Position numbers and translations under genes: made by a program
In this document: positions 66-64,000 of the stretch, piece after piece
How the letters are laid out: every line of letters starts with the position of its first letter
Position numbering within the stretch: the first letter of the stretch is position 1
Assembly (NCBI GenBank): GCA_963971305.1
Contig: OZ020306.1
Location: 53,666,686 to 53,730,685, forward strand
Length of the DNA: 64,000 bases
Origin: Arcuatula senhousia
Lineage: Eukaryota; Mollusca; Bivalvia; Mytilida; Mytilidae
Reading direction: 5' to 3'
Notes under the pieces: generated by a model
What the model was told of the DNA's origin: nothing
What the model saw: only the letters and a program-made list of their open reading frames with translations
The model's database searches: none

Positions 66-658
66 ATGTTCCCCAAACAAAGTTGGGGAACATATTGTTT
101 TTACTCCGTTTCTTACTATTCTTATTATTCTATTTCTTCCGCACTCTGCCAAATGCTTGTCCGGGTATAGCCGAAGAGATGTGAAGACTGAGCTTTATGA
201 AACTTTCCACAGTGATAGGGCACATATCAGAGGTGTGCATAATGTTTTCGAAATTTTCAAAATGGCCACCGTTTCTGAGTAAACAGCAAAAGTTCATTTT
301 ATAGGACATTGCTATATCTCGGTAACCTAGGGGGTGAGGACCTTGTTACTTGGTAGGATTATAGAGCTTGACAAGTACTACAAAAATATCCCAAAAAATT
401 TGAAGCGATATTTATGGTTTTTCTGCAAAATGCAAAAATGTGAAATTTCAAAATCCAAGATGGCCGCCAAAATTCTAAAGTGCTTGGATTTTAGGTAGAT
501 TTTGATGTTTCGAGTAATATTCCACCTCAGAGGTGTCCATAAGGACTTCGAAATTTTGAAAATCGCCACTTTTTTTTTAGTAAATGACAAAAGTTCATTA
601 TATAGGACATCGTCATATCTCAGTAACACAAGTGATGCGCACCTTGAAACTTTGTGGT
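66..658 (+). mobile_element. Family B element, 5' part, 3' end missing
   Basis: It begins with ATGTTCCCCAAAC, which pairs with GTTGGGGAACAT a few bases later to make a terminal hairpin. A degenerate CTT/ATT-rich stretch and a core with phrases such as 'tataggacattgctatatct' follow. The same order of blocks occurs in the complete copy at 21413-22329. This copy breaks off near 658, where family C core sequence starts, and lacks the 3' motif. Short open frames here are incidental. Assignment as a non-autonomous Helentron-like element is inferred from architecture. Confidence 0.7.
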
Positions 659-1298
659 TTCATTTGCACATTAAGTGAAAAGTATAATAGCTAGGCATCT
701 GATATCTAGTATACAGACACATCGGGTTATGGTCTACGCAACTGGTACCCTGCCGTTTGACCATGACCACAATTTCATGGTTCAGCGACTCTGTGAACTA
801 AGAAAAATTTCGGCCCAAAAACCCCTGTGTAAGACTTTTGTGGAAAATAATTAAGTGAAAAGTATAATAGCTAGGTAACTGATATCTAGTATACAGACAC
901 ATCGGGTTATGGTCTATGCAACTGGCACCATGCCATTTTACCCTGACCCCATTTTCATGGTTCAGTGACTCTGTGGACTTAGATGATTTTGGGGGCAAAA
1001 AAAACAAGCAAGGCATCTGATAATTGGGGATTATGGTATACACAACTGACATCACCATGTAATGTGATCTTCACCCCATTTTCATGGTTGAATGACTCAT
1101 GGAATGTTGGTCTTTTTCACTGTTTCTCAATAACTATGGTATCTAGAACAAACTTCAGACATTTTTGTGATGGTTAAATGGAATTCTGTCATCTGTCACA
1201 TGACCTTGACCTTAACTTTTCTGATGGCCGAGCTAGACCTTCAATGAGTTCTGTGATGGTGCCGACAGGCGAGTCATACTTTAGTGTCAACTCTTGTT
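659..1298 (+). mobile_element. Family C element, 3' part with tandem core units
   Basis: Two near-identical units of about 178 bp (from about 675 and 853) and a more diverged third carry the phrase 'gtgaaaagtataatagctag'. The segment ends with GACAGGCGAG, an imperfect form of the C 3' motif, followed by TTTAGTGTCAACTCTTGTT at the terminus. No 5' end is present; family B sequence abuts it. It is non-coding. Confidence 0.7.
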
Positions 1299-1507
1299 AC
1301 ACGTAGGGGGAATTCAATATGGTTTTCATTTTTCTATCAAGTTACAATTTTTGACAGTTAAACATTTTTTGCATCCATTTTTATAGTAAACTTACCAACA
1401 TAATATATTATATAAAATCATTTCTGAATGTCTAGTATATAATCAAACAATGTTACTGCAATTTCAACCCTGAAAATCATCTGATCTAATTTCAACCCTG
1501 AAAATCA

Positions 1508-1567
1508 TGCAGTTTCTGTGGAATCCAATGGAGCAAGAACGTAAACACGTTAGAGATAGCTATAAAT
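1508..1567 (+). repeat. 60-bp direct repeat, copy 1
   Basis: This block starts TGCAGTTTCTGTGGAATCC and recurs at 1970-2029 with a single mismatch (AAC versus AAT). Copy 1 lies inside the inverted repeat and copy 2 outside it, 462 bp downstream. Confidence 0.85.
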
Positions 1568-1754
1568 GACCATGCATAAATATCACAAGGCTATGGAATT
1601 TATCAAAATTCTGATAAATCTGTGTATGCTTTCAAATTAATAGCTCTGAAATTAAAAACCTTGCGACGCTTCATACATTGTGTTAGCAGAATAAGTTGTA
1701 ATTGTACTTCGCAGGGAAAAGTAACACTACCCAAACGATAGCTCTTCTTTTGAG

Positions 1755-60600: not shown

Positions 60601-60732
60601 TGCAAATTACTCAAAAACCGAAACAGATATAAAAATTCTGGCTAGGGTAAAAGTGATCAGCACCTCAAGGTCTACCTGCCCAGAAATTTTCAAGAAGATC
60701 CAACAACTGATGTAGGAGTTATTGCCCTTTTT

Positions 60733-63288
60733 AGCTCACCTGGACCGAAGGTCCATGTGAGCTTTTGCCATCACTTGGCGTCCGTCGTCGTCTGTCGTCG
60801 TCGTCGTCTGTTAACAATTTTTATACGACCGCAAAATTTTTGCGATCGTATTATGTTATGGCGATGTCGTTGTCGGCGTTGTCGTCGTTGTCGTCGTCGT
60901 CGTTGTCGTCGTTGTCGTCTGTGGACACTTTGGTTTCCGTGCGATAACTTTAGTTGTAGATAACCAATTGCTATAAAATTTTGATATGATGTTTATTACC
61001 ACTAAAGGAAGGTTGGTATTGCATTTGGGGTTTCTGGCCCCTACCGTTTAAGAAAAAAGGGCCAATAGGGGCAAAAATGTGTATATTGACAAAACGTCTG
61101 TAGAATGTTTAATTTTCATCCAATTTTGATCATTCTTTTTTTATTGTATTCCTCAATAAATTCTGTCAACAAAATGTATCAACGGCTTTGATGTATCTTG
61201 TACCGTTACATTGCTACTGGGGGTCAAAAAGGGGCCACACCCAAAAAATTGACTTTTTTATTTGTGGTCCGATTTTCAAAATCTTTTTTTCATTGGAATC
61301 CTTGTGAAAATCCCTGCCTGCATTTTTCAATCAGATTTGCAATATCTCTTACCGTTCCTGAGAATTTAGGGGTCAAAGGGGCCAAAAATGCTGTTTTTAA
61401 AAGGTTGTCATTTAAACCAAAATTTAAGTTGTAGTGGGCCTGCCAATTTTTATGAAGTTTTAATATGATGATTAAATCCACTAAAGGAATGTTGGTTTTG
61501 TATTTTGGGTTTGTGGCCCCTTCTGTTTTAGAAAAAAAGGCCAAAAAGGGCTAAAACGGGTGTATTGACAAACCTGTTGTAGAATGTTTATCATTCATTC
61601 GATTTTGAAATTTTTTTTTATTGAATTCAACATTAAATTCTATCTACCTAATGTGTCAATGATTTTGATATGTATTTCACCATTACATTGCTACAGGGGG
61701 GCTAAAGACAGGCCACACCCTTAAAATCAACTTTTTTATTTGTGGTCCGATTTTCAAATTCCTTGTGAATATTTCTGCCTTATTCTTTAATCGGATTTGC
61801 AATATTTTACTGGTTTTGAGAAATTAGGGGTCAAAGGGCCAAAATTGTAAATTAATACATGTATATATAAATAAGGCGTTTGTATTAGATGTTGATGTAA
61901 ATATAAATGTGTCAAAAATGCATTTTAAGTCCACCACAGGATGCATGTGTCAAAAAGCTTTGTAAGTCCACCATGGGCTTCATGTGACCAAAGCAATGGA
62001 CTATCCATACTGGGCCTCAAACGTACAGGATTCAACTTGTTGCGGTCGTATCATGCTGCGCTCGGCGTAGCTTTTTATTCAAAAATCTTCTCCTCTGAAA
62101 CTACTGAACAGAATTCAATGAAACTTGGTACGATTGATCCTTAGGGTTGCCTGCACTTAAATTGTGTTTCGATTTTTGATTCGTCAAAAAACATGGCCGC
62201 CGTTACTAAAAATAAACCAGCGGGTCAGACTACTGTTTTTGGCTAGTAATTCAAAAGTATAAGAGATAGATGAAATATGATGCCACCCTACTGCATCAGG
62301 ATCAAAAGTTCTACAAAAGTTGCCATTTGGTCGAAGTTATCAGATGACCCATTATAGGGGTCACGGCCCCTTAAAGGTGAAAAATAGCATTTTTTCATGT
62401 TTTTGGCGTATAGAATGAAAACTATTGCAGATAGAGAAAAGCTGTTGCTTGCTTAAATGTTAAGCTCATTTAGCTCTGCAAAAGTCTCCATAGGGTCAAA
62501 GTTGACCCCTAATAGGGGTTACAGCCCCTTAAAGGCGAAAATAGTGTTTTTGGCCTGTAGAATGAAAACTATTGCAGCTAGAGAAAAGCTGTTGCTTGCT
62601 TAAATGTTCAGCTCATTTAGCTCTACAAAAGTCTCCATACATTCCAAGTTGTCAGATGACCCCTTATAGGGATTACACCCCCTTAAAGGCCAAAAATAGT
62701 GTTTTTGGCCTATAGAATGAAAACTATTGCAGATAGAGAAAAGCTGTTGCTTGCTTAAATGTTCAGCTCATTTAGCTCTACAAAAGTCTAAATAGGGCCG
62801 AAGTTGTCATATAACCCCTTAAAGGGGTTACAGCCCCTTAAATGCGAAAAATAGTGTTTTTGCCTTATAGAATGAAAACTATTGGAGATAGAGAATAGCT
62901 GTTGCTTGCTAAATGTTCAGCTCATTTAGCTCTACAAAAGTCTTCATAGGGTAGAAGTTGTGAAATGACCCCTTATAGGGCTACAGCCCCTTAAAGGCAA
63001 AAAATAGTGTATTTGGCCTACAGAATGAAAACTATTGCAGATAGAGAAAAGCTGTTGCTTGCTTAAATGTTAAGCTCATTTAGCTCTACAAAAGTCTTCA
63101 TAGGGTCGAAGTTGTCAGGTGACCCATATTGGGGTTACAGCCCCTAAATGGCGAATAATATGGTTATTGGCCTATAGATTGAAAACTATTGCAGATCGAG
63201 AAAAGCTGTTGCTTGCTTAAATGTTCAGCTTATTCAGCTCTACAAAGTTCTTCATAGGGTTGACATCAAGACCAGGGAGCCTCTTGTT
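60733..63288 (+). mobile_element. Family A element with a D element inside
   Basis: The 5' hairpin AGCTCACCTGGACC gaa GGTCCATGTGAGCT, a CGTCGTCTGTCGTC repeat, and the D insertion at 60833-62071 start it. A core follows with six units of about 155 bp (62403-63168), and a shortened 3' end (CAGGGAGCCTCTTGTT, missing the middle of the usual end) is at 63273-63288. The empty form of the site is at 17630-17634. The preceding 60601-60732 and following 63289-63804 are core of an older A copy. Confidence 0.82.
60833..62071 (+). mobile_element. Family D element, complete, about 1.24 kb
   Basis: The 5' hairpin ATACGACCGCAAAA tt TTTGCGATCGTAT is followed by a GTCGTCGTTGTCGTCG array and core units with 'actaaaggaaggttggtatt'. 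The 3' module contains 'gtccaccacaggatgcatgt', TACAGGATTCAAC, TTGCGGTCGTAT and hairpin GCTGCGCtcgGCGTAGC, ending at 62071. Arginine- and serine-rich frames in the array are artefacts of the repeat. Confidence 0.88.
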
Positions 63289-63804
63289 CTGAATTCTTTC
63301 AATTTTTTTTACTTATTTAGCACTATATCTTGAAAACAATACAAGATATTTCAAAAATTTAAATTGCATATGACTAAGCACATCAAAATCTACAAAAGTT
63401 GTAACAGAGTCAAAGTTGTAGGATCGTTCCTTTAGGAGTTATACCCCTTGGTGAATTGACCATTTACAGCTTTTTGTTCAGTTTTTCAAAAATATTCTTC
63501 TCTGAAACCGCTTGACCTAATGAAATGAAACTTAGTAGGGTTGTTCTGTAATATGTTGTCTACAAAATTGTCGTTCGAAATTTTGATTCGACAAAAAACA
63601 TGGCCACCATGGCTAAAAATAGGACATAAGGGTAAATTGCAGATTTTTGCAAATTGCTCAAAAATGGTAACAGATATTAAAATTCTGTTTGGGTAATAAT
63701 GATCAGCACATCAAGATCTACCTGCCCTGAAGTTTTGAAGATCTGACAATGTTTGTAGGAGTTATTGCCCTTTTTCTTGTTTTTTTTTCAAATTTGCTCT
63801 TTTT

Positions 63805-64000
63805 ATACGACCGCAAAATTTTTGCGATCGTATAATGTTATGGCGATGTCGTTGTCGTCGTCGTTGGCGTCGTCGTCGTCGTTGTCGTCGTCTGTGGACA
63901 CTTTGGTTTCCGTGCGATAACGTGCGTAAATATTGACCGAATGTTATGAAATTTTGATATGATGTTTGTTACCACTTAAGGAAGGTTGGTATTGTATTTG
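63805..64000 (+). mobile_element. Family D element, 5' part, cut by the window edge
   Basis: It has the same 5' hairpin as at 60833 and a GTCGTTGTCGTCG array, followed by 'tggacactttggtttccgtg' and D core. It continues beyond the window. Confidence 0.85.

Follow-up and report, generated by a model that had tools for sequence, protein, structure and literature searches.

Introduction

The DINE-1/INE-1 elements of Drosophila carry a 5′ subterminal inverted repeat (subTIR) with an adjoining, partly complementary inverted repeat (IR), a GTCY-rich microsatellite, central repeats and a 3′ subTIR with a stem-loop, and they insert at TT (PMC2374699). Here, we describe elements of this kind in a stretch of 64,000 nt from the bivalve Arcuatula senhousia (assembly GCA_963971305.1, contig OZ020306.1, positions 53,666,686 to 53,730,685 of the forward strand; hereafter the window) and in the genome to which it belongs. 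In these elements the 5′ subTIR, which we call X, has two possible partners, a near arm a few bases downstream and a far arm, which is the 3′ subTIR. In most of the families read, the near arm carries a flaw that is fixed and not random, and the far arms are mostly exact.

The DINE-1 near repeat was termed 'partial and/or interrupted' by Yang and Barbash in 2008, and the DINE-1 subTIRs start with (T)ATACC or TACCC, like those of the E-type families described below; the text of that paper, as far as it was covered here, holds nothing on a systematic or functional interruption (PMC2374699). The first-pass annotation of the window, which knew of no report of a systematically mismatched near arm, was partly wrong in this, as the interruption itself had been described. 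In the literature consulted (open-licence papers, in part, as text without figures or supplements) no treatment of the flaw as systematic was found. The near arm of D. melanogaster may be interrupted in mid-stem. A text search for the Drosophila near arm returned only the published subTIR, and two scans of viral contigs for sequences of other species gave nothing.

Other described systems share parts of the plan. The 11 Cg_HINE elements of Crassostrea gigas have a subTIR, a complementary IR of 7–12 bp separated by 1–12 bp, GTCY, GTCC or GTCK microsatellites, tandem repeats and a 3′ palindrome, but subTIR pairs with one mismatch predominate in most of them, whereas in A. senhousia the far arms are mostly exact and the flaw lies in the near arm (PMC7492417). 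Across the C. gigas genome, 257 of 751 Helitron-like elements were reported to carry subTIRs, and a third of the 257 also have a 5′ IR (PMC7992393). The Helentrons and HINEs of a mite, a mosquito and a fly share the Rep/helicase/endonuclease partner, of which a similar gene set lies in the window, as well as the subTIRs and the 3′ palindrome; the mite HINEs differ in that the subTIR is itself palindromic and a separate near IR is absent (PMC4067079). The FoHeli/Helitron2 elements of Fusarium and Chaetomium have asymmetric terminal inverted repeats with a 5′ hairpin, and some of these hairpins are degenerate and some palindromes imperfect, but the 5′ hairpins of FoHeli1 and FoHeli2 are short and neither a microsatellite nor a tandem array is described in the text covered (PMC5148889). 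The HINE plan, the interrupted DINE-1 near repeat and the degenerate or imperfect 5′ palindromes of fungal Helitron2 are thus already known. What seems to be new is the count across families, the three lineages within family D and the exception formed by family E2.

Results

The repeats share a common plan

The assignment of the window repeats to HINE-type, non-autonomous Helentron (DINE-1-like) elements, as proposed in the first-pass annotation, is well supported by the layout of their sequence, in which subTIRs, a near IR, a microsatellite, tandem repeats and a 3′ palindrome are all present. The order of parts is a T-run, X, a short loop, the near arm (a short inverted repeat, typical of HINEs, that can pair with the 5′ subTIR from a few bases further downstream), a microsatellite, mostly tandem repeats, the far arm and mostly a 3′ hairpin. 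Pairing between X and the far arm was exact over 9–13 bases in families A, B, C, D, E, G and H, and over 10–13 bases in E3, E4, E5, M1 and M2, for which one to a few copies each were read and the E3 far arm was taken from a different locus than the E3 left ends. Some of these subTIRs are slightly shorter than the published range of about 11–15 bp. The microsatellite after the left end is GTC-rich in A, C, D, E, E2–E5 and M2, built on TTC in B and on CGG in G. Tandem arrays with units of about 150–174 bp lie between the left and right ends of A, C, D, E, G and H; the short M2 element has no central array, and none was listed for B among the tandem repeats of the window. A 3′ palindrome after the far arm was seen by eye in A, B, C, D, E2, E4, E5 and M1 and was weak or unclear in E, G and H. 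The left ends are preceded by a T-run, part of which was required by the scans, and one A element stands after the T-run within an E element.

The families had been called unrelated in sequence, which overstates the case. Besides the T-run, and the GTC microsatellite of most families, ATCA occurs at or after the far arm in C, D, E, E4 and H, and CTTGTT near the end of A, C, G and the short M2 element. Judged by sequence, the left and right ends that were read appear to resemble HINE ends. Canonical Helitrons (Helitron1) are marked by a 5′ TC, a 3′ CTRR, a hairpin about 11 bp from the 3′ end and an AT target.

Near arms are flawed and far arms exact in most families

Copies were collected from a single genome of 1.04 Gb to see whether the mismatch varies at random between them. 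Copy counts refer to the first 100 places listed for each search, all on one contig (C1). In the patterns for A left ends and for D with its flank, the core of X and the flank downstream both had to match exactly, and the G pattern was tied to bases 1–8 of X together with the downstream flank; as a control, the A left-end, A far-arm, D and G patterns were read backwards and gave 0 matches.

The A left-end pattern had 9456 matches genome-wide. Of the copies listed, 85 had a mismatched T at the key near-arm base, 14 had G, which makes the arm perfect, and one had C. For the A far arm, a pattern built on its flanks, which covers GACC-type and GCC-type right ends only, had 5388 matches, and the arm was exact in 91 of the 100 listed (read by eye). 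Far arms were exact in most families read and weaker in E2. The nine inexact A far arms were of seven kinds, one kind occurring three times, and one of them had T at the key base. The inner stems of A vary on both sides (GACC/GGTC, ACCC/GGGT and GCC/GGC), with the T mismatch in 33/42, 30/35 and 21/21 of the listed copies, respectively. Among the 40 family E copies with GTGGCA or GTGGCG before GGGTAT (within 100 listed), all had GTGGCA, and the near arm was mismatched in 39; in the remaining copy it was paired because X7 is T. The G pattern had 2815 matches, with no perfect near arm among the copies listed and CAGAGCGGGAC in 75 of them. The mismatch is thus not random between copies, and random decay of the near arm was rejected as a full account because each lineage has one prevailing state.

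The perfect A copies occurred in several loop backgrounds (GACC-AAA, GACC-GAA, GACC-TTC and ACCC-GAA among those listed). They may be remade repeatedly by hairpin-templated correction; PMC8794818 deals with the creation of hairpins by template switching. As a separate observation, three A-family hairpins have a TTC loop in place of GAA together with a perfect near arm (L014, minus strand, near 7574; C1:9376298; C1:11290863), and they look as if template switching had inverted the hairpin tip.

Three different mismatches accompany one X in family D

With one type of flank, family D gave 2236 matches; among the 100 listed, the near arm had G>A at position 6 in 88 copies and C>T at position 4 in 8, and it was perfect in the other 4. 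The 12-mer of the D arm, searched irrespective of near arm or flank, had 15504 exact hits. Sixty of the 100 places listed, all below 5.35 Mb on C1, were fetched as a sample that left out the places found in the flank-type search, their partners and places further on. Twenty-five of them were left ends with a near arm, of which 19 had T>A at position 7 (the sole change in 16), 5 had G>A at position 6 (the sole change in 4) and 1 had C>T at position 4, and three further hits of X were without a near arm. None of the 25 was perfect, in a sample from which the perfect copies known from the flank-type search were excluded; two such copies stand at 3266783, in the same stretch, and at 5955112, further on. 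An exact 12-base far arm followed within 3.6 kb on the same strand in 20 of the 25 left ends. The near-arm mismatches are A×A, C×A and G·T, opposite X6, X7 and X9, and X and the far arm are common to all three lineages. Therefore, three different single near-arm mismatches accompany one X and one far arm, and the near-arm flaw arose more than once within family D.

Outer-stem searches reveal further flawed families and one exception

Generic searches were made in which only the outer six pairs were fixed and the middle was left free. ATACCC...GGGTAT gave 3087 matches against 26 for the reversed pattern, and ATGCCC...GGGCAT gave 5019 against 2. Families E3, E4, E5, M1, M2 and C had a mid-stem bulge or internal loop together with an inner stem. 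Among 100 copies listed for each search, a flaw with an inner stem of at least 3 bp was found in 73 (ATACCC) and 77 (ATGCCC), perfect stems in 18 and 0, and no inner stem in 9 and 23. Inner stems beyond the flaw were more frequent than in shuffled controls, as 37 of 48 and 40 of 61 distinct middles had a flaw plus an inner stem, compared with shuffled means of 11.8 and 16.2. In these left ends, the 5′ hairpin consists of an outer stem of about 6–8 bp that is part of the subTIR and an inner stem, separated by a small mid-stem flaw that can be a mismatch, a bulge of one or two bases or a small internal loop. At the site of the flaw and on both sides of it, X is exactly complementary to the 3′ subTIR.

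The flaw might be read directly if an interruption or bulge in the 5′ hairpin were what the Rep (HUH) domain recognizes. Imperfect hairpins are read by the transposases of bacterial IS200/IS605 elements, and the flaw is placed alike in many families, at X6, X7 and X9 in D, X8 in A, X7 in E and X8–9 in C, M1 and M2. These positions are biased, however, by the blindness of the generic searches to flaws in the outer 6 bp, and statistics on flaw position were dropped because those searches require intact outer pairs. The chemistry of the flaw and the strand that bulges also differ between families and E2 has no flaw, so we regard recognition of the flaw as quite improbable.

Family E2 made up 20 of the 100 listed ATACCC copies, and 17 of the 20 had a perfect near stem of 13 bp. 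Its far arm is weaker and paired with X over 11 bases in one of the two copies read and over 10 in the other. A near hairpin that was stable and identical to the 3′ subTIR might act as a terminator and truncate the element, and a flaw would then keep the two arms distinct. The 3′ hairpin of Helraiser is a termination signal whose deletion raises truncation and read-through, according to the text covered (PMC4778049), and in the rare E variant with X7 = T the paired near arm is still unlike the far arm. However, the near arm equals the far arm over 11 bases in one E2 copy, and in 14 of the 100 listed A copies the near arm has the same 8 bases that the far arm usually has. It is therefore very doubtful that the flaw serves to avoid a false 3′ end, and a strict rule that the near arm be distinct from the far arm is weakened by E2 and the perfect A copies.

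By our own tally, a flaw in the near arm only was found in 12 of 13 family-level designs (A, B, C, D, E, E2–E5, G, H, M1 and M2), which are the designs read and not independent origins; the odd single left ends L012, L014, L020, L029 and L093 were excluded. The earlier claim that the near arm is always flawed fails because of E2, though 12 of the 13 designs fit it; A, D, E and G are mostly flawed, and in the window the A copy at 42564 is perfect. Such a pattern could also follow from relaxed constraint, if the transposase needs X and the far arm, which therefore stay exact, and the near arm need only form some hairpin. In the founder version of this account, each master element fixed one or two harmless near-arm changes that its copies inherited. 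The near-arm variants do form inherited lineages (D1, D2 and D4, and the T in A), the far-arm changes of A are scattered (7 kinds in 9 copies), A and D have perfect copies and E2 is perfect as a family, and the 0, 1 or 2 flaws per family look drift-like, as a rough impression. On the other hand, the near arm is not free, because the inner stems exceed the shuffles and few of the listed copies (9 and 23 per 100) have none. The 12 of 13 designs give p = 0.0017 against this account if near and far arms were equally changeable and the families independent, which they are not. On balance, relaxed constraint with founder effects is a possible explanation, though a somewhat unlikely one.

Modelled folding favours release of X in some families

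The flaw costs 3.3–5.5 kcal/mol in single hairpins of A, D and E and, calculated by difference, 2.7–8.5 kcal/mol in B, C, G, G2 and H. When whole elements were folded as DNA, repair of the flaw lowered the per-base probability of pairing between X and the far arm from 0.73 to 0.001 in D, from 0.97 to 0.02 in E and from 0.98 to 0.006 in the G element at 34918, but only from 0.997 to 0.94 in the G element at 22627. In the folding model, X thus leaves the far arm for the near arm on repair in D, in E and in one of the two G elements. Among all single changes of a perfect near arm, 8 of 36 in E and 12 of 36 in D favoured the far arm, clustered in mid-stem. The changes observed in E and D1 are among these, and that of E lies at the position with the strongest effect.

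The first-pass annotation had suggested that a weak local hairpin gives way to pairing of the 5′ and 3′ ends. The folding of D, E and G agrees with this, and that of A, C, H and E2 does not. E4 and E5 mostly paired with the near arm in the model, and their match to far-arm release is marginal. An energy-only switch was rejected as a general rule because A, C, H and E2 retain near pairing in the model; the folding leaves such a switch possible in some families and makes it unlikely as a general rule.

Features of the window

The arm sequences first quoted for A, D and E were found exactly in the window, and the odd near-arm base of D and E faces X7, as had been stated. All features below are on the plus strand unless noted. 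Family A has 5′ hairpins at 17267–17297 (X from 17267, near arm CATGTGAGCT at 17288–17297, C×T mismatch at X8; exact far arm CAGGTGAG at 18749–18756, followed by a 3′ hairpin and TTGTT), 19266–19289 (short inner stem ACC/GGT, C×T mismatch), 30107–30137 (C×T mismatch, with an A far arm downstream at 31538), 36806–36836 (far arm at 38383), 40797–40827 (two mismatches), 42160–42190 (C×T mismatch), 42564–42594 (the perfect exception) and 60733–60763 (C×T mismatch); a variant at 40557–40585 has the inner stem TGCC/GGCA and the same C×T mismatch. The 5′ hairpin of D at 60823–60851 consists of X at 60823–60834 and the near arm at 60840–60851 with C×A at X7, and its exact far arm TTGCGGTCGTAT lies at 62040–62051; a second D hairpin at 63805–63833 has its far arm outside the window. 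Family E is represented at 36756–36784 (X 36756–36767, near arm 36773–36784, C×A at X7; exact far arm GTGGCGGGGTAT at 39132–39143) and at 52259–52287 (near arm from 52276; exact far arm at 52860–52871). The first of these E elements (36756–39143) contains a nested insertion, as the A element from 36806 to about 38418 stands after its T-run.

Small near-arm bulges had been described for B, F, G and H. In G, C, H and the second B copy, bulges or double flaws stand beside exact far arms, but not at the B left end at 66–93. In the latter (X 66–78, near arm 82–93), 11 bp are uninterrupted and X has an extra A at its inner end. The second B left end at 21403–21430 (X 21403–21415, near arm 21419–21430) is interrupted, and the far arm at 22283–22295 pairs with X at 13 of 13 bases and is followed by a 3′ hairpin. 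A G left end lies at 4938–4963 (X 4938–4947, near arm 4953–4963), with T·G and a bulged A. Further G hairpins are at 22627–22652 (X 22627–22636, flawed near arm 22642–22652; exact far arm CAGGCGAGAC at 23148–23157) and 34918–34943 (near arm 34933–34943; the same far arm, exact, at 35803–35812). In the C hairpin at 41042–41068, X (41042–41054) has two extra bases opposite the near arm (41058–41068), and the far arm GCGGGGCAT at 41805–41813 is followed by a 3′ hairpin. The H hairpin at 47279–47302 (X 47279–47289, near arm 47293–47302) lacks one base, and its far arm AAGGGGAGAC at 48234–48243 is exact over 10. A very short M2-type HINE at 57268–57327 has a near arm at 57268–57278, a far arm at 57317–57327 and a decayed X.

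A Helentron-type gene set occupies 48888–56879 in several frames, with matches to Herpes_teg_N, DUF6570, Helitron_like_N, the PIF1 helicase and Exo_endo_phos. Those to DUF6570 and PIF1 are above the Pfam cut-off and the other three below it. The DUF6570, PIF1, Helitron_like_N and Exo_endo_phos matches at 50577–56879 mark a putative Helentron partner, whose termini were not found. The second E element is inserted in this gene set (about 52259–52900), and a 114-bp tandem repeat (4.3 copies, 98% matches) at 50133–50622 lies between the first Helentron frames. Elsewhere in the window, two type I hammerhead ribozyme matches above the Rfam gathering score (3103–3146 and 3458–3501, minus strand) are 355 bp apart, a reading frame at 6559–7329 with an integrase core domain (rve) match is probably a retroelement remnant, and 9-bp units of the TCAATTGA type form long arrays at 25496–27959 in higher-order repeats of 63–108 bp with many long inverted repeats.

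Discussion

A fixed imperfection whose chemistry differs across many families fits selection better than accident, although this is no proof; to the first-pass annotation it had looked like a selected design. The A far arm has no mismatch lineages like those of the near arm, which also speaks for selection, as do the two-sided changes of the A inner stem under a prevailing mismatch and the repeated origin of the flaw in D. We suggest that the outer and inner stems may be maintained by selection as a 5′ end signal, and that the flaw may be favoured for keeping the 5′ hairpin from excess stability. X could thereby be opened by Rep or the helicase, or become free for pairing with the 3′ subTIR once the ends come together. 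A 5′ hairpin that is retained without being too stable is a broader idea than a switch and fits more of the data, and we hold it tentatively, at somewhat less than an even chance.

A number of points weigh against selection on the flaw. Perfect lineages exist, and E2, whose near hairpin is perfect, has multiplied. Full-length copies of A can do without the near-arm flaw, because a far arm was linked about as often to perfect GACC-type copies (4 of 9) as to mismatched copies of that type (12 of 33). In the folding model, pairing of X with the near arm prevails with the flaw present in A (0.86) and H (0.78), and it likewise prevails in C, A3 and E2; the preference of A, C, H and E2 for the near arm does not depend on the flaw. 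The D4 and D2 mismatches alone leave the far arm losing (0.30 and 0.11). The model says little on the G flaw, since almost any single change in this family (24 of 30) tips the balance to the far arm, which also still prevails after repair in the element at 22627. The linear multiloop term of the model probably flatters long-range pairing and understates the cost of a long loop. Furthermore, the families are no independent trials because they share descent, and a harmless change fixed in a loosely constrained arm would look similar.

A narrower form of selection on the flaw would be a tuned two-state strand, in which the flaw is selected so that the energies of X with the near and the far arm stay close. 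We consider this unlikely. If it were true, X would act as a switch in rolling-circle transposition, changing from a 'start' hairpin to the synapsis of the ends, and X, the near arm and the far arm would coevolve three-way across families.

Helentrons and HINEs are very abundant in several invertebrates, and how they mark and join their ends is poorly understood. A recurrent flaw in one of two rival partners of X is a simple, testable handle on this question, and the natural D lineages and perfect copies provide 5′ hairpins that differ by single bases. Should the flaw matter, pairing of the ends or opening of the hairpin would be a controlled step; if it does not, the near repeat would be only loosely constrained.

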